In this document: positions 2,985 to 19,910 of the stretch, one piece after another
Position numbering within the stretch: the stretch's first letter is position 1
How the letters are laid out: every line of letters starts with the position of its first letter
DNA from: a virus
Length of the DNA stretch: 24,733 bases
IMG/VR virus record: IMGVR_UViG_3300036768_001101
Coordinates: 1 to 24,733 of that record
Strand: one strand, 5' to 3'
The notes under the pieces: generated by a model
Seen by the model: the letters and a program-made list of their open reading frames with translations, nothing else
Told to the model about the DNA's origin: nothing
Databases searched by the model: none
Position numbers and translations under genes: made by a program

Positions 2985-3343
2985 AAAAACATCCAGGGGG
3001 AAGACCAACTAAATTAAATGAGGAGGTGGTTAAAAAACTGGAAAGTATTTTTAAGGTTGGAGGAACAGTAGAGGAGGCTTGTGCTTATGCTGGAATTTCA
3101 AAACCAACTTATTATGCTTGGCTAAAAGAAGATGAGAGTTTTTTAACGAAAATGGAGGCGGCTCAACATTATGCTGATATTGTTGCCAAAAACTTAGTAG
3201 TGAAAGCAATAACAGAGGATAAAGATTTAGAAAGTGCAAAGTGGTGGCTTGATAGAAGAGTGTTTAAAAATCAACCCATCATTCAAGCAAACACCCAAAT
3301 AAACATTTTTGGGCAACTAAAACAAAAATATGGTCAACTTTAG
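2957..3343 (+). CDS. terS: Terminase small subunit
   Basis: This 128-aa protein has the layout of many phage small terminases: a basic GGRPTKL N-terminal arm (residues 14-20), then a helix-turn-helix, TVEEACAYAGISKPTYYAWL, spanning residues ~37-56, and a C-terminal helical region (KNLVVKAITEDKDLESAKWWLDRR) for oligomerisation. It should bind the phage packaging site and hand DNA to the large subunit. The start at 2957 lies within the methyltransferase gene (28-nt overlap) and its end overlaps the large terminase gene by 14 nt, so the three are translationally linked. No Shine-Dalgarno sequence precedes it. Family assignment is confident from motif and gene order. Confidence 0.88.
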   Translation: MGDNNTKNIEKHPGGRPTKLNEEVVKKLESIFKVGGTVEEACAYAGISKPTYYAWLKEDESFLTKMEAAQHYADIVAKNLVVKAITEDKDLESAKWWLDRRVFKNQPIIQANTQINIFGQLKQKYGQL

Positions 3344-4163
3344 GCAAAAAGCTCAAATATATGTCAACTTCATCAAAGACAACTTTATGCTTGTTGCAAA
3401 AGATGGAACAGTCAAAAGATTTTATGATGATATAAACCATTGGAGAATACAGGAAGATTTTATTCTAAACAAAGCAACAGGAAGAGATGTTATCCTAAAA
3501 TCAAGACAGTTAGGTTTTTCATCAATTATTCTTGCTATCTTCACAACTGATTTTCTTCTTAAAGACAACTCATACTCTATGGTTATAGCTGATAAGTCAG
3601 ACAATGCTGAAGATTTACTTTCAAGAGTAAAGTTTTACATCAAATCATTTGAGGAAATAAACCAAGTAAAACTAAACTTAAAATACAATTCTAAATACGA
3701 GCTTTACAATGAACATCTAAACTCAACTTATAAAATAGGAACAGCAGAGAATAAAGAGGTTGGGAGAAGTAAAAGTTTAACAGGACTACATTTATCAGAG
3801 ATGGCTTTTTATCCTGACCCTGAGGCAATCTTGCGATCCGCCCTCCAGGCAGTAGTGCCAGATGGGAAAATATTTATTGAGACAACAGCAAACGGGTTTT
3901 CGTTTTTCAAAACCTTTTGGGAGGAGTGTAAAAGAGGAGAGAGACCTTTCAATCCTTTATTTTTCAAAGCAAGTGATTTTTATTCACAGGACTTCTTAAA
4001 ACAAAAGAAACTTGAATTGAAAGAGTTTTTTTCTCAAGAGTATCCCGAGACTGATATAGAGGCATTTATTTCAAGTGGACAAAACTATTTTGACAAGTTA
4101 GCGTTAAAATGGTATTTGGAAAATATAAAAGAGCCAATTAAAAATGATTTAATATATGTTTAG
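3330..4163 (+). CDS. terL: Terminase large subunit, ATPase part
   Basis: This 277-aa ORF carries the packaging-motor ATPase: a Walker A-like KSRQLGFSS (57-65) of the R/KxxxxGxS type found in large terminases, a Walker B-like LHLSEM with catalytic Glu157, and a coupling motif ETTANG (184-189). It ends with NYFDKLALKWYLEN, which normally sits just before the nuclease domain, then stops at TAG 4161-4163. The nuclease domain follows in the +1 frame, and the two ORFs share 8 nt (ATGTTTAG). Either this is one protein joined by +1 frameshifting, or a true two-gene terminase, or one base has been lost or gained by mutation or assembly error. A full single-chain terminase would be about 495 aa, a usual length. 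Confidence 0.9.
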   Translation: MVNFRQKAQIYVNFIKDNFMLVAKDGTVKRFYDDINHWRIQEDFILNKATGRDVILKSRQLGFSSIILAIFTTDFLLKDNSYSMVIADKSDNAEDLLSRVKFYIKSFEEINQVKLNLKYNSKYELYNEHLNSTYKIGTAENKEVGRSKSLTGLHLSEMAFYPDPEAILRSALQAVVPDGKIFIETTANGFSFFKTFWEECKRGERPFNPLFFKASDFYSQDFLKQKKLELKEFFSQEYPETDIEAFISSGQNYFDKLALKWYLENIKEPIKNDLIYV

Positions 4164-4821
4164 ACAGTTTAGACAAATAGAGCGGGGAGAATTTATTGTC
4201 GTTGGTGTTGATACCGCATCAGGTGGCGGAGATTATACCGCCGCACAATTTTTATCAAAAACAAAATTAGATGTTCCTTTAGTTTACCACTCACCGATAA
4301 CAACCACCGAATTTACCAACCTTTTAGTGCCAGTTTTAGAGAAAATATATGACAGGACAGGAATTAAACCAGTTGTAGCATATGAGAGAAATAATGGTGG
4401 AGCATTTGAGATGGACAGACTTGCCGCAATGAATAGACTTAATAAATATGATTTGTTTAAGATGCCTACATTTGGAAGAATTGACCCGCCTGATGCTGTT
4501 CAATATGGCTGGACTACCTCATCATCAACAAGACCAAAAATGCTTCAAGACTTAAAGCAGGCGATTGATAACAAGGTTTTGCGAATATATGACAAAGAGA
4601 CAGTAAACGAACTATACTCTTTTGTTGTTGTTCAGACCTCATCCTCCTGGAAAGCACAGGCTGATAAGGGAGCAAAAGATGATTTGGTTATGAGTTTGGG
4701 GATTTGTTATCAAGTCTCTTTATTTGCTAAAGAGCCAGTAACAGAAAAGCAAGCACAGGGATATTATGACCAGATAGAGGATTTACATAAAAAGTTATTT
4801 GACGAGCAGGGATTTTATTAA
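4156..4821 (+). CDS. terL: Terminase large subunit, nuclease part (+1 frame)
   Basis: This 221-aa ORF is the RNase H-fold nuclease domain that cuts concatemeric DNA during packaging. It opens with the usual entry strand, VVGVDTASGGGDYTAA (Asp19, Asp26), has a second acidic site in VVAYERNN (Glu77) and a third in KGAKDDLVMS (Asp175/Asp176), the metal-binding set of large terminases. Residues 9-20 align naturally with the sequence that follows the ATPase ORF, so the split falls in the linker between domains. The ATG at 4156 lies in the ATATG context used elsewhere here, so independent initiation is possible. There is no Shine-Dalgarno site. A separate nuclease subunit would be unusual. Confidence 0.88.
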   Translation: MFRQFRQIERGEFIVVGVDTASGGGDYTAAQFLSKTKLDVPLVYHSPITTTEFTNLLVPVLEKIYDRTGIKPVVAYERNNGGAFEMDRLAAMNRLNKYDLFKMPTFGRIDPPDAVQYGWTTSSSTRPKMLQDLKQAIDNKVLRIYDKETVNELYSFVVVQTSSSWKAQADKGAKDDLVMSLGICYQVSLFAKEPVTEKQAQGYYDQIEDLHKKLFDEQGFY

Positions 4822-4823
4822 AT

Positions 4824-5171
4824 ATGGATGATAAACTAATTGAAATCCTAAAAAACATATCACCTGAAACAAAGCAGTTTATTTTAGACCTTTTAGCCAT
4901 ATCATATGGGGTTGAGTATGGGGTGTTCAATCTGAAACTTAATATCCACAGAAAATCTATTAAAAAGGCAGAGTTTAAGGGGTGGAAGACAATAACATAT
5001 GGGAAGTCAGAACAAGACCAACAAAAAGCTGTGAAAGACCTAGCAGAGAAAATAGCAATTGCCAAAAAAAACAAACAAAACTGTAAACTTCATTTTTTAG
5101 TTGACTTGAAAGGGGGCTATATAACAGGAATTTACTGGGATAGTTTTTATGAAAAAATATATTCCCCTTGA
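4824..5171 (+). CDS. Conserved-looking hypothetical protein between terminase and portal
   Basis: This 115-aa protein starts 2 nt after the terminase stop, in the AAATATGGAT context, clearly in the same operon. The N-terminal ~30 residues look helical (LIEILKNISPETKQFILDLL). The rest alternates basic and hydrophobic residues and ends in likely beta strands (CKLHFLVDLKGGYITGIYW). No motif is recognised. Its TGA stop (5169-5171) lies within the TTGACA box of the portal promoter, so transcription units meet here without spacing. A packaging accessory role is only a guess from position. Confidence 0.75.
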   Translation: MDDKLIEILKNISPETKQFILDLLAISYGVEYGVFNLKLNIHRKSIKKAEFKGWKTITYGKSEQDQQKAVKDLAEKIAIAKKNKQNCKLHFLVDLKGGYITGIYWDSFYEKIYSP

Positions 5172-5196
5172 CAAGCAATAATTGTTTTGATATAGT
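5168..5196 (+). promoter_or_regulatory. Consensus sigma70 promoter upstream of portal leader
   Basis: TTGACA (5168-5173), exact 17-bp spacer, TATAGT (5191-5196), then TTTATTA with the predicted start at A5203. The same TTTATTA follows the -10 box of the tail promoter at 19150-19155. Confidence 0.85.
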
Positions 5197-5202
5197 TTTA
5201 TT

Positions 5203-5270
5203 AGGTTAGGTGTAGTCTTTGCGATTACACCCTGCACCACGCTTAATTAAAGGCGTGGTTTTTTTTGTAT
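5203..5270 (+). promoter_or_regulatory. Attenuator-like leader RNA before portal gene
   Basis: The leader from the predicted start to the portal ATG is 68 nt. It folds into hairpin 1 (GGTGTAGTC 5209-5217 with GATTACACC 5223-5231, 5-nt loop, one G-U) and the terminator hairpin described separately. GGTGTAG can also pair with CTGCACC (5232-5238), which touches the base of the terminator, so two alternative folds exist. Because the terminator lies between promoter and start codon, portal expression from this promoter requires read-through. Confidence 0.65.
5236..5266 (+). terminator. Intrinsic terminator 4 nt before portal start
   Basis: ACCACGC (5236-5242) pairs with GCGTGGT (5253-5259), with an AT-rich palindromic loop, then eight T (5259-5266). 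GTAT and the ATG at 5271 follow at once. The form is a textbook rho-independent terminator. Confidence 0.85.
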
Positions 5271-7091
5271 ATGGATATAGACAAAATCCTAAAACAATTT
5301 GAAAGTGACAAACAAGCTTACTCCAAAATATTCTCCTTATTTGATGAGAAAGAAAGGTTTTTGAAAAATGAAATTTCCGATAGCGGAAAAGGAATTCTTA
5401 AATCACAGGTATTAGACCAAACTTTAATGACTGCGTTAATTAGGCGAGCCAATCAAGTTATGGCTAAGATGCCAACGGGAGTGGTTAGAGTTCTATCAAA
5501 AGAGGATAAAGGGAAAGGTGTTTTCTTAAATTTAATTTTAGACCACTATATTATCCCAAATGCCAACTCACAGGCTGATATCTACACAAAGTTTTGGCTA
5601 ATGGAGTTTTTGTCTTTAATCTACGGGAAAATGGATGTTTTGGTTGACTGGGTGGTAAAGGAGGGGTATACAGGTCCTGACTTCTTCTTAATCCCACCAA
5701 AATTAGGAATACCTGAACCTGGGGTTATATCAACAAATGATATGTCCCGATATTTTGTTTTGTCTTATGTTTCAGAGGACTTTTTGAAAAAAAGAAAAGG
5801 GTTAAAATATTGGAAGAATATTGATAAAGTGCTTGATAAAGGAAAAAAGAATAAAACAGATGAAAGAGATACATCAACCTCAAAGGAAAGAGAGGAAAAT
5901 GAATTATACAAAGACCAATACGAGCTTATTACCTTATACACTCCAAAAAGTTGGATTACTTTTTCAAGACAAGCAAAGGTGATTTTAAGAGATATTGAAA
6001 ATCCTCATCAAAATGGAAAACTTCCAATTGTCTCAAAAGTATGCTATCCAACACTTGACAATTATTTCGGCACATCAGAATATGATAGAAATATAAGCCA
6101 GCAAAAAGCACTAAACTCAACTGTCAATTTATCACTTGATGCCTTAAAAAAACATCTTTATCCTCCAACTAAAATCTATCCAAGTGATGTTCATATGCCA
6201 TCTTTCTCATTATCACCTGGAGCAGTATGGGTATTGAAAAATCCAAATCCAAATGCTATTGTTCAAGAGCAATTCTCACCAGCACCACTTCAAACATTTA
6301 ATGCTTTATATGGAGTGTTAAAGGGAGCTTTGTTATCATCTCTTGGCACAACTGATACAACTGTATCATCTGCAGTTGAGCCAGCACAGGGAAAAACACC
6401 AGAGGCTTTGAAGATGCAACAAATGTTTATCACCCTAAACACCTCATTTGACAGAAAAATGTTAGAGCAGGCAATTTCAGATATCTATGACAGATTTTTA
6501 GACCTTCTAACCCACAAACAAGAGGCTGATATTGAATTTGATATTTTTGGTGATGAGTTTAATATGATAAAAGAGCAGTATCCTGATATTTTAGAGTTGT
6601 ATGAAAGCGGAGAAGGTGGAAAAATTACTATTAAAAACAAGGATATTAAAAACTTGTCGGTTAAATTCTTTATTGATGCTTCATCCACAATGAAGCAAGA
6701 TGAGATGCTTGAAAATCAAAACTTAACTTCTATTTTAGGCTTTTTATTAAAATTACCTGGCTTTATGGAGCAGGTAGCCCAGCAAGGAAAAGCAAGGTAT
6801 GGTTCAGTTGAAATTGATTTTTCAGAACTTCTTAAAAGATTTATAGCAACAGCAGGGGTAGAAGGGTATGACAAGATTATAAAAGACGCACCGAAGGAGG
6901 CATTAACAGTTAACAATGCCCAAACTCAACCCCAGGCTATGGGGATGGCTCAAATGCCACAACAACAAGGTATGGGAGAGGGTATGCCGCAGGAGGCACA
7001 ACCTCAACCACAACCGCAAGAAGAAAATCCTCTGATAGCAAGTCTACCTGAGGATCAAAAAAGATTGTTTTATGAAATTATAAACAGATAA
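5271..7091 (+). CDS. Portal protein
   Basis: This 606-aa protein has portal length and position: after terminase and before scaffold and capsid. Visible features that suit podovirus-type portals are an acidic and aromatic middle (YELITLYTPKSWITF), a Q/N-rich stretch around residues 275-300, a clip/stem-like helix region near 340-400 (ALLSSLGTTDTTVSSA) and a C-terminal Q/M/P-rich low-complexity tail (QPQAMGMAQMPQQQGMG) before a short helix. It should form the dodecameric ring through which DNA enters the head and to which the tail attaches. ATG 5271 is chosen over the in-frame TTG at 5265, which lies in the terminator T-run. The assignment rests on size, context and general look rather than a diagnostic motif. 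Confidence 0.85.
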   Translation: MDIDKILKQFESDKQAYSKIFSLFDEKERFLKNEISDSGKGILKSQVLDQTLMTALIRRANQVMAKMPTGVVRVLSKEDKGKGVFLNLILDHYIIPNANSQADIYTKFWLMEFLSLIYGKMDVLVDWVVKEGYTGPDFFLIPPKLGIPEPGVISTNDMSRYFVLSYVSEDFLKKRKGLKYWKNIDKVLDKGKKNKTDERDTSTSKEREENELYKDQYELITLYTPKSWITFSRQAKVILRDIENPHQNGKLPIVSKVCYPTLDNYFGTSEYDRNISQQKALNSTVNLSLDALKKHLYPPTKIYPSDVHMPSFSLSPGAVWVLKNPNPNAIVQEQFSPAPLQTFNALYGVLKGALLSSLGTTDTTVSSAVEPAQGKTPEALKMQQMFITLNTSFDRKMLEQAISDIYDRFLDLLTHKQEADIEFDIFGDEFNMIKEQYPDILELYESGEGGKITIKNKDIKNLSVKFFIDASSTMKQDEMLENQNLTSILGFLLKLPGFMEQVAQQGKARYGSVEIDFSELLKRFIATAGVEGYDKIIKDAPKEALTVNNAQTQPQAMGMAQMPQQQGMGEGMPQEAQPQPQPQEENPLIASLPEDQKRLFYEIINR

Positions 7092-12081: not shown

Positions 12082-12106
12082 TTTTTATAATTTTTTTTGT
12101 TATTCT
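12078..12106 (+). promoter_or_regulatory. Extended -10 promoter for non-coding RNA region
   Basis: TTGATT (12078-12083), 17-bp T-rich spacer, TGT then TATTCT (12101-12106), an extended -10 element. Predicted start about 12113-12116. No gene follows for more than 900 nt on this strand, so the transcript is non-coding or has a very long leader. Confidence 0.6.
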
Positions 12107-12436
12107 TTTTTTTTGATTAAGAGTATTTTGGTTTGGAAAGTGTGGTAGCGGAGGTTCTCCCATCCTTTCCGTTTTCCTTGACAACAAGGTTTGCAAATAA
12201 AAACGGCTTAACAATTGGGAGGGCGACCGAGACTCATCCAGACGCAAATAAGAAGTGTTGATTACATTTACATCCGTGAAAAAACCCAAGCACACTCCTC
12301 GTGCCAGGAAACAGAGGAGAGATGGGGGGAGATAGGAAGAAACAAGGTAGGATAAAAAGAAGGTGTAAACAACCTGCTTGCGGAGGAAAGATTGAGGGAA
12401 GCCAAGGGCATCAAGCACCGTAAGAGTAGAGTAAGA

Positions 12437-12451
12437 GGGGGGAGGGGGAGG
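12437..12451 (+). other. G-rich tract on + strand
   Basis: Six G, A, five G, A, two G (12437-12451), three bases before the left arm of the inverted repeat. It could form an RNA:DNA hybrid (R-loop) or a G-quadruplex when transcribed. An earlier GGGGGGAG block lies at 12324-12331. Confidence 0.6.
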
Positions 12452-12453
12452 CA

Positions 12454-12520
12454 TTATATACACGTCGTTTAATGTAAAGTTGAGGCTAAAAATAATAACA
12501 ATTTACGACGTCTTATATAA
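12454..12520. repeat. Inverted repeat with TATATA shoulders
   Basis: The left arm TTATATA-C-ACGTCGT (12454-12468) matches the right arm ACGACGT-CT-TATATAA (12505-12520): two 7-bp perfect blocks joined by a small internal loop, around a ~36-nt AT-rich spacer. It can be a cruciform in DNA or the 3' stem of the RNA. No T-run follows on the + strand, so it is not a standard terminator. Confidence 0.75.
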
Positions 12521-12529
12521 AAAAAAGAA

Positions 12530-12904
12530 TTAAGTAGCCCAAAGTTTTTCACGAGGACACCACTTTACTTCTATTTGATATTCTTTCACCAGTCTTTTAA
12601 TAATGGAGGCAGTCAGTTTTAATCTTTCCTCCTTCACTTTATAGTTTTCCATAGCAATCCCAACCATAAGTTTACTATCCGAATAAATAGTCTTTATTCC
12701 TCTTTTATATGCTTCAATTATGGCAGTAAGCAAAGCAAATAGTTCAGCCTCATTATTAGTATTATCATCACTATCAAGAGACAAAACCATTCTATCATTT
12801 GGAGAAAAATTAATTTTAGCAGTTGCTCTTCCACGAGGGTGACTAACATTAAAAAGAAAGGGATTTATAACTAGCCCACCATCACAATGTATCACTTTTT
12901 CCAT
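12530..12904 (-). CDS. RNase HI-like protein, C-terminally short
   Basis: This 124-aa protein runs against its neighbours. It has the RNase H order of motifs: an acidic first strand IHCDGG (Asp8), NNEAELFALLTAIIEA (Glu54) and the third strand IYSDSKLMV (Asp76), then a helix and VKWCPREK. Type I RNases H of this branch end with 'PRExN..AD', supplying a fourth catalytic Asp; here the chain ends REKLWAT, so the final position is Thr and no residues follow. RNase HI cuts RNA in RNA:DNA hybrids in replication and primer removal. Activity may survive or be altered. It has its own promoter, which shares its -35 region with the divergent one, and a weak AAGG before ATG 12904. Length is ~20-30 residues below normal. 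Confidence 0.8.
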   Translation of the reverse strand: MEKVIHCDGGLVINPFLFNVSHPRGRATAKINFSPNDRMVLSLDSDDNTNNEAELFALLTAIIEAYKRGIKTIYSDSKLMVGIAMENYKVKEERLKLTASIIKRLVKEYQIEVKWCPREKLWAT

Positions 12905-12918
12905 TTGATTACCTTATA

Positions 12919-12947
12919 ATTATACCATAAAAAATTCCTCTTGACAA
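12919..12947 (-). promoter_or_regulatory. Sigma70 promoter for RNase HI-like gene
   Basis: Minus strand: TTGTCA (12942-12947), exact 17-bp spacer, consensus TATAAT (12919-12924). The predicted start is about 12912, 8 nt before the ATG. The -35 box overlaps that of the divergent + promoter by five bases. Confidence 0.75.
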
Positions 12948-12968
12948 CTGTAAATTATTTGTTAATAT
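12941..12968 (+). promoter_or_regulatory. Sigma70 promoter for small basic protein leader
   Basis: TTGACA (12941-12946), 16-bp spacer, TAATAT (12963-12968). Predicted start near 12975, about 90 nt before the ATG at 13068. Confidence 0.65.
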
Positions 12969-12974
12969 CTTAAT

Positions 12975-13067
12975 ATATAGGTTTTCCTTTTTAAGAAGGC
13001 AACCAAAAAGCAGGCAATTATTGTCTGTTTTAGGTTGTCTTTTTTTTTATAAGTTTAATTAAAAAAT
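12975..13067 (+). promoter_or_regulatory. Attenuator-like leader before small basic gene
   Basis: The leader carries a small hairpin CCTTT/GAAGG (loop TTAA, one T-G) followed by a long imperfect terminator hairpin. A spacer of 19 nt with no Shine-Dalgarno separates the T-run from the start codon. Same order as the leaders before portal and tail adaptor: promoter, hairpin, terminator, gene. Confidence 0.55.
12998..13048 (+). terminator. Intrinsic terminator before small basic gene
   Basis: GGCAACC (12998-13004) pairs with GGTTGTC (13033-13039). Inside it GCAGGCAA pairs with TTGTCTGT plus flanking A-T pairs, making a ~18-bp imperfect stem with a TTA loop. Nine T follow (13040-13048). Confidence 0.8.
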
Positions 13068-13262
13068 ATGGAAAAAATGAAACCGAAAGGGAAAAAAGGT
13101 AGAGCAATGGTTAAAAAGTTGGGCAGAAATTACAAGACTGGAATGTTTAATAAAATAGCCAAAAAAGCTGCAAAAGAGTATGGTTCAAAAGAGGCAGGAA
13201 AAAGAGTTGCGGCAGCAATATATTGGAGGAAAGTAAGAAACAGAATTGCTAAAAGCTTATAA
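13068..13262 (+). CDS. Small very basic protein
   Basis: This 64-aa protein is rich in Lys and Arg with almost no acid residues. It contains a MVKKLGRNYKTGMFNKIAKK segment and then AAKEYGSKEAGKRVAAAIYWRKV. The 'RNYKTGGF.KIA.KAAK.YGS.EAG.RVA' layout resembles small basic proteins that recur in phages and low-GC bacteria. DNA or RNA binding, or a virion DNA-associated role, is plausible. It is preceded by its own promoter and attenuator leader, in the AAATATGG start context without a ribosome site. Coding status is well supported; function not known. Confidence 0.8.
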   Translation: MEKMKPKGKKGRAMVKKLGRNYKTGMFNKIAKKAAKEYGSKEAGKRVAAAIYWRKVRNRIAKSL

Positions 13263-13743: not shown

Positions 13744-13772
13744 ATTATATCAAAAAATATGGCACTTTTCAA
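13744..13772 (-). promoter_or_regulatory. Sigma70 promoter, leaderless for membrane protein
   Basis: Minus strand: TTGAAA (13767-13772), exact 17-bp spacer, consensus TATAAT (13744-13749), then 6 nt to ATG 13737. The -35 box lies inside the first codons of the divergent virion gene starting at 13759. Confidence 0.8.
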
Positions 13773-18000: not shown

Positions 18001-19138
18001 AACAGTTATAGGAATACCAATTGGACCAAGTGTTTTAACCTTACCAAGAGCAGGAGCAAGAGCAGTTTTAAGAGTGGCAAAAGGGGATATAAAAGGAGCA
18101 ATAGGGGATGTTGTTTCAACAGCATCTTCAATGGGATTAAAAACAATTGGTGATATTGCGATGAATTCAGATTATTTTGGAAAACCTATTTATGATGAGG
18201 GAGACGATTTACCAACCGCAACCAAAAAAATAGCTCAATATTTATTTACTCAAACACAGCACCCGTATATTTCAGAGATTTTTGACCCAAGAAATCAAAA
18301 AGACCCAGCCTATCAGAGATTAGCAAGAGCAATAGAACTACCTTTGCGATTTTATACCGAAAAATCATTAAATGCTAAATATTTTTTTCAATTCCAAAAT
18401 GAGGTATTAAGAGGGCTTGATGCAAAAGAAAAATCAGCCTATAACTCAATACCAAAAATAGATGAGAAAGACCCTCAAGACCCAAATAGAAGAATTTTAA
18501 AATATCAAATTTATTTAACCTATCCCAATGTTTTCAAAGCCAAGCAAGCAATTGAGATAGCAATGGCTCAAAAACTAAACAAAGAAATAGACCCGTTATA
18601 TTTAGTTGATTATGAGACAGCAAAAAAATATATGAGGTATGAGACACTACCTGATGGTTCTCCCGAAAGAAAAGCAATGAATAATGTTTATCCAGAATTA
18701 AAAGTCTTATTTGAAAAAAGAGCGGAGTATTTTAAAAGAAATCCAATGCCAGAGGATGGACAAACGGTAGCAATGACCCAACCTCAACCATCAGAAAGAG
18801 TTAAAAAGAAAATGGAGGAGAAAAACTGGAGCGACCCTGAGGTAAAAGATTATTTAAATGCTTTAAGAGAGTGGCAGAATACTCAAAGAATAAAGTTAGG
18901 ATTACCATCAATTGATCAATATGGCAATATTGAGGGGACAAAAGGTTTTTCGTTTGGGGGTGGTAAAACGAAAAAAATAAAAATATCTCTTAAACCACCA
19001 AAAACAAAAAAAATCTCAATCAGACCAAAAGCAGTAAGAATGACAAGAATTAAAGTTAGTCCAAAAATAGGTAGCATAAGTTTAAAGAATATAAAAAGTA
19101 AAGTAAAGAGACCAAAAATAAAAGTATTGACAGGTTAA
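15020..19138 (+). CDS. Giant internal virion / ejection-type protein
   Basis: At 1372 aa this is the largest protein here and matches the size of T7 gp16/N4-type ejected virion proteins, though sequence family is not recognised. Residues ~66-125 hold an imperfect repeat (IANPQTRxxWFRGF then LSNPQTRGTWLSGF). Residues ~150-260 are Gly/Ala-rich and amphipathic, likely membrane-active. A P-rich, acidic linker with PPPTTSP and PPKPPPPPERL (~420-490) follows, then a long helical middle. The last ~60 residues are very basic (KTKKIKISLKPPKTKK and similar), likely to contact DNA or the membrane. No lytic transglycosylase motif was noticed. Starts in AAATATGGAC with no ribosome site. The promoter for the tail genes overlaps its last codons. 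Confidence 0.75.
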   Translation: MDELIKRLKKSLSDFTSKLTDNEGFFQQGKPTLQPIQEAISNWASKPQNYQVANTLANIPQAINTGLSNIKNNIEMIANPQTREDWFRGFTPQIPQQISQPISNLQQNISLLSNPQTRGTWLSGFIPETPKPLENLKLNLQLIKKAPDKMIQSIPQSMEDTLIKLGKDTGQKLGGETGATVGEILGRTAGGLEKGFTTALMSPFTSKPLPSKIGDIIGGVGSTYYAGETVGFAALNPVFTTVGTLITKGRLPTKDELMKSYSEGIEFGSKFAPITKATTPITSAIFEKYNPQEIKTAVDVMKRLAVKGLGGATSFGTFGYLTSDKTGQGRIKDTIDNAIQGALFDMGAEGVGMATKPMVEKVKNFISDFIKLPPEEKWNVLRNVNIGFNVKPTKDKNVRMVSEAVKQGHITPEEGQAILEDLAKQGEKIKIKGKTTPPPTTSPVGESGGEVGNININGSTEPQTTKQPQTDEFLKGLEEDMKKLQSEPPKPPPPPERLDLGQGGAVDKANINTALNFDRFKQRLIQALNNINAAKTEGIKTGLQFKDLPKNVSPVDAIKFIENPENAPKKLEPYLKEVRRVYDELYNLAQKEGIDMKYVKNYLTHIWDRPQEEVAQLYKQYKTKFNFSNERTLPTYEEGIKMGLKPKYSNPAQIIADYTSRLKQTIEKISLLRDLEKEGFLVAKRIPGFEPVTVSGIEPKAKIIGENKIREGVYYAPPEVAEVLRRAFGEQKPGLFSLPAKIMALWQDIKLAGGIPGTPLNAWTFGQVIKEITAGRPIHALKAIVNSMTEEGANKFFQEHIDDILAMQKRGIGVSTSLNLTGIKNIGEIFKEKGLGGVWHAVVNDPTFKRFSPMLQIDFFSRMKNELINKGYDKELAADIAAKATKNFYGIVDYGERALRDKNIEDLITTVFFAPKYREGILNFMINNIKALKNPLSPENIYNTRYIIGTVLTYLAYDKLNRMFNGRGLAENPPGTEDKLLIPVSKITGDENDKTVIGIPIGPSVLTLPRAGARAVLRVAKGDIKGAIGDVVSTASSMGLKTIGDIAMNSDYFGKPIYDEGDDLPTATKKIAQYLFTQTQHPYISEIFDPRNQKDPAYQRLARAIELPLRFYTEKSLNAKYFFQFQNEVLRGLDAKEKSAYNSIPKIDEKDPQDPNRRILKYQIYLTYPNVFKAKQAIEIAMAQKLNKEIDPLYLVDYETAKKYMRYETLPDGSPERKAMNNVYPELKVLFEKRAEYFKRNPMPEDGQTVAMTQPQPSERVKKKMEEKNWSDPEVKDYLNALREWQNTQRIKLGLPSIDQYGNIEGTKGFSFGGGKTKKIKISLKPPKTKKISIRPKAVRMTRIKVSPKIGSISLKNIKSKVKRPKIKVLTG

Positions 19139-19155
19139 AAAAAAGAGTGTATTAT
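19127..19155 (+). promoter_or_regulatory. Sigma70 promoter for tail operon leader
   Basis: TTGACA (19127-19132), exact 17-bp spacer, TATTAT (19150-19155), then TTTATTA with the predicted start at A19162. The -35 box encodes Leu-Thr of the giant virion protein, whose stop lies at 19136-19138. Confidence 0.85.
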
Positions 19156-19161
19156 TTTATT

Positions 19162-19229
19162 AAAAGTTAGTCTTTTCCGAGATAATCGGGATGTAGACAG
19201 GGGATAATTCTCCTGTCTTTTTTTTGTAT
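19162..19229 (+). promoter_or_regulatory. Attenuator-like leader before tail adaptor gene
   Basis: The leader is 68 nt, the same as the portal leader. Hairpin 1 pairs TTCCGA (19175-19180) with TCGGGA (19186-19191), loop GATAA. It can be extended by GTCT (19170-19173) with AGAC (19195-19198), but those GAC bases (19196-19198) also begin the terminator stem, so the extended hairpin 1 and the terminator are mutually exclusive, as in attenuators. TAGTCTTT occurs in this and in the portal leader. Confidence 0.65.
19196..19225 (+). terminator. Intrinsic terminator 4 nt before tail adaptor start
   Basis: GACAGGGGA (19196-19204) pairs with TCTCCTGTC (19209-19217), loop TAAT, one G-U, then eight T (19218-19225). 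GTAT and ATG 19230 follow. The T-run and start (TTTTTTTTGTATATG) are identical to those before the portal gene. Confidence 0.88.
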
Positions 19230-19910
19230 ATGACACTATCTGAAATCTTAAACAAAATCCATCTTTTATACGAGGGGGATACTAGTTATCCAGCAGATGG
19301 AAGTGAGGACTATAATTTAAGAAAAGGACTGGTAAATGCAGCAATAGATGTCTGGGAGCAGGAGAATGTCAGATGGAGAGAGTTATTTAAAAATCTATCG
19401 GATGCAACAGATGGGGATAAGACAGCAACAACATCAACTACCTCCTATTCAACCCCCTCCGATTATCGCTTTATCTCATCTTTTTTGTATATTCAAGATG
19501 CATCTGGAAATAAAACCTACTATGTCTATAAAAGACCAGATGATGTGATAAAAACAGACAAAATCAATAGTTCATCAAAATTCTTTTATGAGACAGGCGG
19601 AGGCTCATCAAAAAAAATAAATATTGTTAATCCAGTAAACGGGATTATTCACTACTCCTATTACAAAAAAGCAACTAAATTATCAAACTCAACTGATGTT
19701 CCCGAGATGTTAAATCCAGATTTTATTGTATATTGGGTTTTAGCACAACTTTATGAGCAGGATTTAAGAAATGATAAGGTGGCTCAATATCAAGCCTTAG
19801 CCAAGCAGTCTTTGGATTATATGATTATTGAAAATGAAACAAAACCATTCAATCAAAGTTATAATTTAGCCGAACTTGATTATGAGGACGGCTTTATCTT
19901 TGGAAAATGA
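19230..19910 (+). CDS. Head-tail adaptor / tail tubular A-like protein
   Basis: From ATG 19230 the product is 226 aa; the in-frame TTG at 19224 is part of the terminator T-run and is rejected. The pattern is that of podovirus adaptor proteins (gp11 of T7 / similar 'tail tubular A'). The N-terminal helices (LSEILNKIHLLYEG, then LRKGLVNAAIDVWEQEN) are followed by a beta-rich middle (TPSDYRFISSFLYI and IIHYSYYKKATKL). A C-terminal helical segment (MLNPDFIVYWVLAQLYEQDLR, residues ~173-193) comes next. It should join portal to the tail nozzle. It is translated from the leader described above with an ATGA junction to the next gene. Assignment by pattern and order, fairly sure. Confidence 0.78.
   Translation: MTLSEILNKIHLLYEGDTSYPADGSEDYNLRKGLVNAAIDVWEQENVRWRELFKNLSDATDGDKTATTSTTSYSTPSDYRFISSFLYIQDASGNKTYYVYKRPDDVIKTDKINSSSKFFYETGGGSSKKINIVNPVNGIIHYSYYKKATKLSNSTDVPEMLNPDFIVYWVLAQLYEQDLRNDKVAQYQALAKQSLDYMIIENETKPFNQSYNLAELDYEDGFIFGK

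Follow-up and report, generated by a model that had tools for sequence, protein, structure and literature searches.

Three leader sequences in a phage genome known from an IMG/VR record (IMGVR_UViG_3300036768_001101) are probably conditional terminators, or attenuators, that gate late operons encoding virion structural proteins. The analysis covered the whole record of 24,733 nt, referred to here as the window. From sequence analysis we put the probability of this reading at roughly 0.6, and support for an attenuator-type gate on late genes comes from the anatomy of the leaders, their conservation, their placement before particular genes and the promoters upstream of them. No published description of such leaders was found in the open-access literature.

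Anatomy of the three leaders

The features on which the argument draws are as follows, all on the plus strand.
4824–5171, +, g4824, a small two-repeat protein adjoining the portal leader and candidate trans factor (family HMM)
5168–5196, +, portal leader promoter: TTGACA, 17 nt, TG-extended TATAGT (sequence and promoter scan)
5203–5266, +, predicted leader RNA, or short terminated RNA, of about 64 nt (start placed from the −10 position; fold)
5204–5238, +, extended hairpin 1: outer strand GGT (5204–5206) pairable with ACC (5236–5238), the 5′ end of hairpin 2
5209–5231, +, hairpin 1 (hp1), 9 bp with a 5-nt loop: GGTGTAGTC-TTTGC-GATTACACC
5236–5266, +, hairpin 2 (hp2) plus T8, an intrinsic terminator 4 nt 5′ of the portal ATG
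5271–7091, +, portal gene, 606 aa, first gene of the putative gated operon (PHROG 332 head-tail adaptor, E = 6e-13)
12941–12968, +, second leader promoter: TTGACA, 16 nt, TG-extended TAATAT
12980–13048, +, second leader: small hp1 (outer GGTT..AACC) overlapping a long terminator hairpin (12998–13039), then T9
13068–13262, +, gene for a 64-aa basic protein behind the second leader (ORF list)
19127–19155, +, third leader promoter: TTGACA-17-TATTAT, its −35 within the 3′ end of the tape-measure ORF
19172–19225, +, third leader: hp1 19175–19191 (outer GTC..GAC), terminator hp2 19195–19218, T8 to 19225
19230–19910, +, g19230, a virion structural protein of 226 aa behind the third leader (PHROG 2941, E = 2e-4)

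A preliminary description of this DNA had proposed a near-consensus promoter and a two-hairpin leader ending in a terminator directly 5′ of the portal gene, and all of these parts could be located. The −35 element TTGACA (5168–5173) and the extended −10 element TG-A-TATAGT (5191–5196) match the consensus at 11 of 12 positions, and in a promoter scan of 20 kb this site ranked among the top seven. Hairpin 2 reads ACCACGCTT-AATTAA-AGGCGTGGT (5236–5259), with seven core pairs plus T-G and T-A, and is followed by T8 (5259–5266), GTAT (5267–5270) and the portal ATG at 5271. The predicted fold of the portal leader has an energy of −26.7 kcal/mol (z = −4.6), and none of 200 shuffles was equally good. 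Terminator d-scores (d'Aubenton-Carafa) were 33 for the portal leader, 33 for the leader at 12941 and 44 for that at 19127. All three leaders have the G+C-rich stem, the immediate U-rich tract and the positive score of intrinsic (Rho-independent) terminators, and a promoter of its own, a short leader and a terminator ahead of the first gene are the anatomy of an attenuator. Direct reading of the sequence revealed no ATG between 5203 and 5271, and hence no leader-peptide ORF of the kind used in ribosome-mediated attenuation.

As only GTAT separates the T run from the ATG, transcription of portal from the local promoter or any promoter upstream needs read-through. The earlier statement that portal is made only by read-through therefore holds, but its extension to all genes up to 12081 goes a little too far, because there may be internal promoters further on. 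Portal has no Shine-Dalgarno (SD) sequence. Its longest ORF opens further upstream, with a TTG (5265) where the T run ends, and the gene run that continues downstream of portal includes the major capsid gene.

The leaders at 12941 and 19127 repeat the arrangement of the portal leader part for part, and the window contains exactly three strong terminators, all in leader position. The repetition of the design, already noted in the preliminary description, goes far beyond chance. The second leader is conserved in four relatives. The 64-aa product encoded behind it is rich in lysine and arginine, and a family search with this protein found no family. The early-strand promoters (815 and 1177) and the promoter of the terminase operon (1614) are without such a terminator, which fits a gate confined to late genes. 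It is plausible that the three leaders constitute one phage-wide late switch.

Under the proposed mechanism, a host-type sigma-70 promoter would start an RNA of roughly 60 nt, and by default RNA polymerase would stop at hp2 and U8, right before the start codon. A factor would engage the leader, most likely via hp1, which in its extended form includes part of the 5′ arm of hp2; with the factor on the leader, polymerase would read through and the operon would be made. We infer that termination really happens at the leaders, that read-through is regulated and comes late, and that hp1 is both the recognition and the antiterminator element.

Other features of the window were noted in passing. The promoter of the methyltransferase/terminase operon (1614–1650) puts the predicted transcript start on the ATG, as in a leaderless mRNA, and sites at 13772 (minus strand) and 1272 resemble this leaderless-type promoter. 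Between the glycosyltransferase and RNase H genes lie about 400 bp of largely non-coding, G+C-richer DNA (12100–12530). The terminase large subunit is split into overlapping ORFs (3330–4163 and 4156–4821; 277 and 221 aa), and because both halves recur at similar sizes in several relatives, the split is not a sequencing error.

Conservation and genomic placement

Eight records with portal identities of 84–100% were taken as close relatives. The promoter and both hairpins are conserved in all eight, and the string T8GTATATG is unchanged; the −35 element of the portal leader is identical and TGATANANT is retained. The nine pairs of the portal hp1 are all kept (100% of pair cells) in the seven distinct sequences, two of them having changed on both sides with compensatory G-C/A-U and U-A/C-G exchanges. 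The seven core pairs of the portal hp2 are invariant and its loop varies. Compensatory changes in hp1 were seen in two of the three leaders (portal and 19127), and the closing pair of hp1 in the 19127 leader is A-U, C-G or U-A depending on the relative, always paired. The events are few and a shuffle control (58/500) is not decisive, so the covariation is supportive but not conclusive alone. The preliminary description had named stem conservation in relatives as one test of its proposal, and the stems are indeed kept, with compensation in hp1. Its suggestion that GGTGTAG can pair with two partners fared less well: the base pairing is real in the window, but relatives disrupt the second of the two pairings, and the GGTGTAG:CTGCACC switch, with 5 of 49 cells unpaired and zero compensation, was rejected.

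Two close relatives carry an extra gene, YopX-like by eye, between g4824 and the portal leader (L003:2911–3255 and L004:1195–1632). Leader and promoter stay joined to portal in both despite this gene.

An alignment of diverse portals provided about 60 further loci, mostly of 35–49% identity. In a census of 52 portal loci, mostly of 35–50% identity, with a strong terminator defined as d > 15, we counted 30 strong terminators, five weak ones, six start-codon hairpins and 11 loci without a leader; the gate is thus dispensable. The strong terminators lie 6–48 nt (mostly 6–15) 5′ of the portal ATG and their stem sequences are unrelated, as in a distant example that has the same layout in different letters, CCCGCCAAATAGGCGGG-TTTTTTT-ATG. 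Leaders fall on both sides of the midpoint root of the portal tree, which makes the design an old one in the clade, with several losses.

Placement was analysed on long contigs of 12 lineages, counting the window and its three close relatives once. A strong leader terminator stands before portal in 10 of 12 lineages (13 ORFs, one contig being split) and before the g19230 homologue in 8 of 9, compared with only 11 of 281 other late-strand ORFs (18/22 versus 11/281; Fisher p = 2.6e-18). A promoter score of at least 10 was found in the 95 nt upstream of 22 of 32 leaders, against 2.2% of random windows. The full design is present at 19 of the 37 strong terminators of the clade and at none of the 20 in T7, HK022, TP901-1 and phiC31. 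Contigs carry from one to about six gated units, and one of them (G015) has three strong terminators in 43 kb, all in leader position and all reading TTTTTTTATGGC.

Terminator placement alone would fit constitutively leaky terminators that set dosage, with a fixed read-through fraction lowering the yield of low-copy proteins such as portal and neither a switch nor a factor involved. The terminators do stand before portal and a structural gene, and one gene of T7 likewise has a strong terminator 24 nt ahead of it. For this purpose, however, a weak promoter would suffice, yet each terminator of the window has a near-consensus promoter just upstream; the fact that the gene run of portal goes on to include the major capsid gene also argues against dosage control, and the sharing of hp1 motifs within genomes (see below) would be left unexplained. 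We consider unregulated leakage unlikely.

The six start-codon hairpins may represent a second output. In these loci (L067, L073, L075, L076, L087 and L093) portal lacks an ATG and starts at a TTG inside TTGGC. Folding predicts a hairpin in all six in which the start codon pairs with a strand upstream of it, in L076 partly, and often as GCCAA..TTGGC. The contig that contains L073 (G021) keeps terminator leaders at two other positions, those of g19230 and the fibre gene. Judging by these predicted structures, most lineages seem to gate this late gene at transcription and others at translation; a sub-clade that hides its TTG start is expected if gating matters more than the means. The six loci also have recurrent GGAGTATC/GAGGTATC strings and internal mismatches in their hairpins, resembling a translational operator.

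That this group seems to act on translation also lends something to the idea that the hairpin-U tract, as an element of the 5′ UTR, serves mainly translation or mRNA stability, with a ribosome or S1 landing on U7–8 beside the AUG and termination incidental. The U run abuts the ATG directly in many lineages, and SD sequences, of which the window has few, are rarely used by the phage. Other SD-less genes of the window are nevertheless without a hairpin-U tract, several leaders (G011, G020 and L038) have the terminator and then a normal SD sequence, and the stems and U runs score as strong terminators, so that we regard a UTR device as improbable and retain conditional termination as the preferred reading.

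No close named phage relative of the window was found: named phages gave no DNA match, and a comparison of portal with them gave one match, at 23% identity. Portal relatives are present in two genomes of one phylum, one of them a Saccharibacteria MAG, with a third match that is weak and in two pieces, and also in a Vermiphilus MAG. These matches are too few for the host of the window to be named. The portals of two distant relatives, G011 (L020:8632–9609) and L089, contain an insertion of ~326 aa with LAGLIDADG/homing-endonuclease matches, probably an intein.

Hairpin 1 and the candidate trans factor

The hp1 regions are alike within a genome but not between genomes (difference 2.23, versus 0.19 ± 0.24 for random regions), and none of 2000 label permutations reached this difference. 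Four leaders of G016 consist of GTTCTTC, an unrelated stem and [TG]CTGAACC, one of them having GTTCTTA, and three leaders of G009 have a GTAACC..AGGGCG element in common, related versions of which occur in G016. The three leaders of the window are weakly alike (scores 5–8), so the evidence for hp1 sharing comes mainly from G009, G016, G018 and G021. A scan of the collection with the class-B hp1 pattern GTTCTTC-N-TCTGAACC returned 120 rows, at chance level outside the clade. The pattern of hp1 motifs, shared within and differing between genomes, suggests that a phage or host factor recognises them in a lineage-specific way; because the motifs differ between lineages, this factor is probably itself lineage-specific or co-evolving.

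The outer strand of hp1 is complementary to the 5′ side of hp2 in the window (GGTT/AACC at 12941, GTC/GAC at 19127 and GGT/ACC at 5168), in G011 (GTCT/AGAC, AGTT/AACT and GTTTA/TAAAC) and in G016 (GTTC/GAAC). When folding of the nascent RNA was predicted before completion of hp2, the extended hp1 formed in all three window leaders. Across 40–45 leaders the complementarity exceeded that of swapped arms, with p about 0.01 in two crude tests. The outer pairs are 100% paired in close relatives but invariant, and therefore carry no covariation evidence. The choice between extended hp1 and hp2 is a modestly supported and better-conserved alternative to the GGTGTAG switch. An extended hp1 that overlaps the 5′ arm of hp2 would follow the logic of a protein-stabilised antiterminator, the signal for which is modest.

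One candidate for the trans factor, a speculative one, is the protein g4824. An HMM of its family, trained mostly on terminator-leader lineages, detected homologues 5′ of portal at all 27 terminator-leader loci whose flank was long enough, compared with 7 of 14 others (p = 1.5e-4). Co-loss of g4824 with the leader, as judged by BLAST and by eye, was apparent only: weak homologues came up with the HMM both in the start-codon-hairpin group and at two loci without a leader, which weakens the case, and as g4824 adjoins the leader, one deletion can remove both. The protein belongs to no known family or fold, with only sub-threshold similarity to DUF2292, and its AlphaFold model, of medium confidence, gave no fold match. 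Members of the g4824 family are small proteins of one or two β-hairpin repeats, encoded between terL and portal throughout the clade, in some lineages as two half-size genes.

We tentatively suggest that these leaders may belong to an undescribed, clade-wide form of riboregulation in tailed phages. A lineage-specific phage RNA-binding factor, possibly of the g4824 family, would read the fast-diverging hp1 and control exchangeable outputs at the same late genes, namely, in most lineages, a terminator abutting the start codon or, elsewhere, a hairpin hiding it.

Relation to known systems and biological meaning

The RAT of the LicT/SacY/BglG systems is an imperfect hairpin that on its 3′ side shares sequence with the 5′ arm of an intrinsic terminator and that a protein can stabilise. 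By analogy, hp1 overlaps the 5′ arm of the terminator and could be stabilised by a protein; unlike RAT, however, the leaders matched no Rfam family at gathering score (chance-level E-values only), and the CAT_RBD domain of the LicT type (PF03123) was absent from the phage contigs, which are incomplete. In LoaP-type antitermination, an RNA hairpin in the 5′ leader recruits the antitermination factor. The likeness here is again one of analogy, and no NusG-family protein (PF02357) was found in 15 incomplete phage contigs.

In their working, the leaders would be most like the lambdoid PR′-tR′ unit, in which a strong promoter is followed by a promoter-proximal terminator and the late genes are expressed by read-through only (PMC6606751), but multiplied over several genes per genome. 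Lambdoid phages have one PR′ unit, whereas here there are one to about six per contig, with a terminator that abuts the start codon and a conserved hairpin before it. No Q homologue was detected in the 15 incomplete contigs at E ≤ 0.1 with PF06530, the only Q family covered.

The put element of HK022 is a ~70-nt two-hairpin RNA that itself promotes read-through of terminators elsewhere (PMC9378689), and our leaders resemble putRNA in having two stem-loops within the first ~70 nt after the promoter. Both put stems, however, form an antiterminator that acts on distant terminators, whereas here stem 2 is the terminator itself and the sequences are unrelated between lineages. The suggestion of a put-like antitermination RNA in the preliminary description is not supported by this anatomy.

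A terminator in this position could also act as an insulator that blocks stray read-through from the upstream operon and is passed by polymerases modified by processive antitermination, as has been argued for conjugation operons of Gram-positive bacteria that have internal terminators along with antitermination systems (PMC8955417). We think this quite improbable, given that the local promoter lies upstream of the terminator and would be blocked too, and that the terminators stand before particular genes and are not scattered along the operon. It is very unlikely that the units are independent, moron-like small-RNA genes (promoter, ~60-nt RNA, terminator) lying between late genes and acting in trans: every unit is complete from promoter to terminator, and HK022 late genes have terminators 18–23 nt before ORFs, but the orthologous positions are identical in a dozen lineages with unrelated RNA sequences, closeness to a start codon is needless for a small RNA, and portal would be left without a promoter of its own.

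Conditional termination at these leaders would show how a large uncultivated phage group in which no antitermination protein is recognised controls the timing or dose of its virion genes, with several terminator gates in parallel instead of a single late promoter. Each leader is short, forms a self-contained unit and is readily placed before a reporter, and the lineage-specific hp1 motifs would offer a direct route to finding the factor. As a genomic mark, the combination of promoter, hairpin pair, U7–8 and ATG may point to the heads of late operons in viral dark matter.
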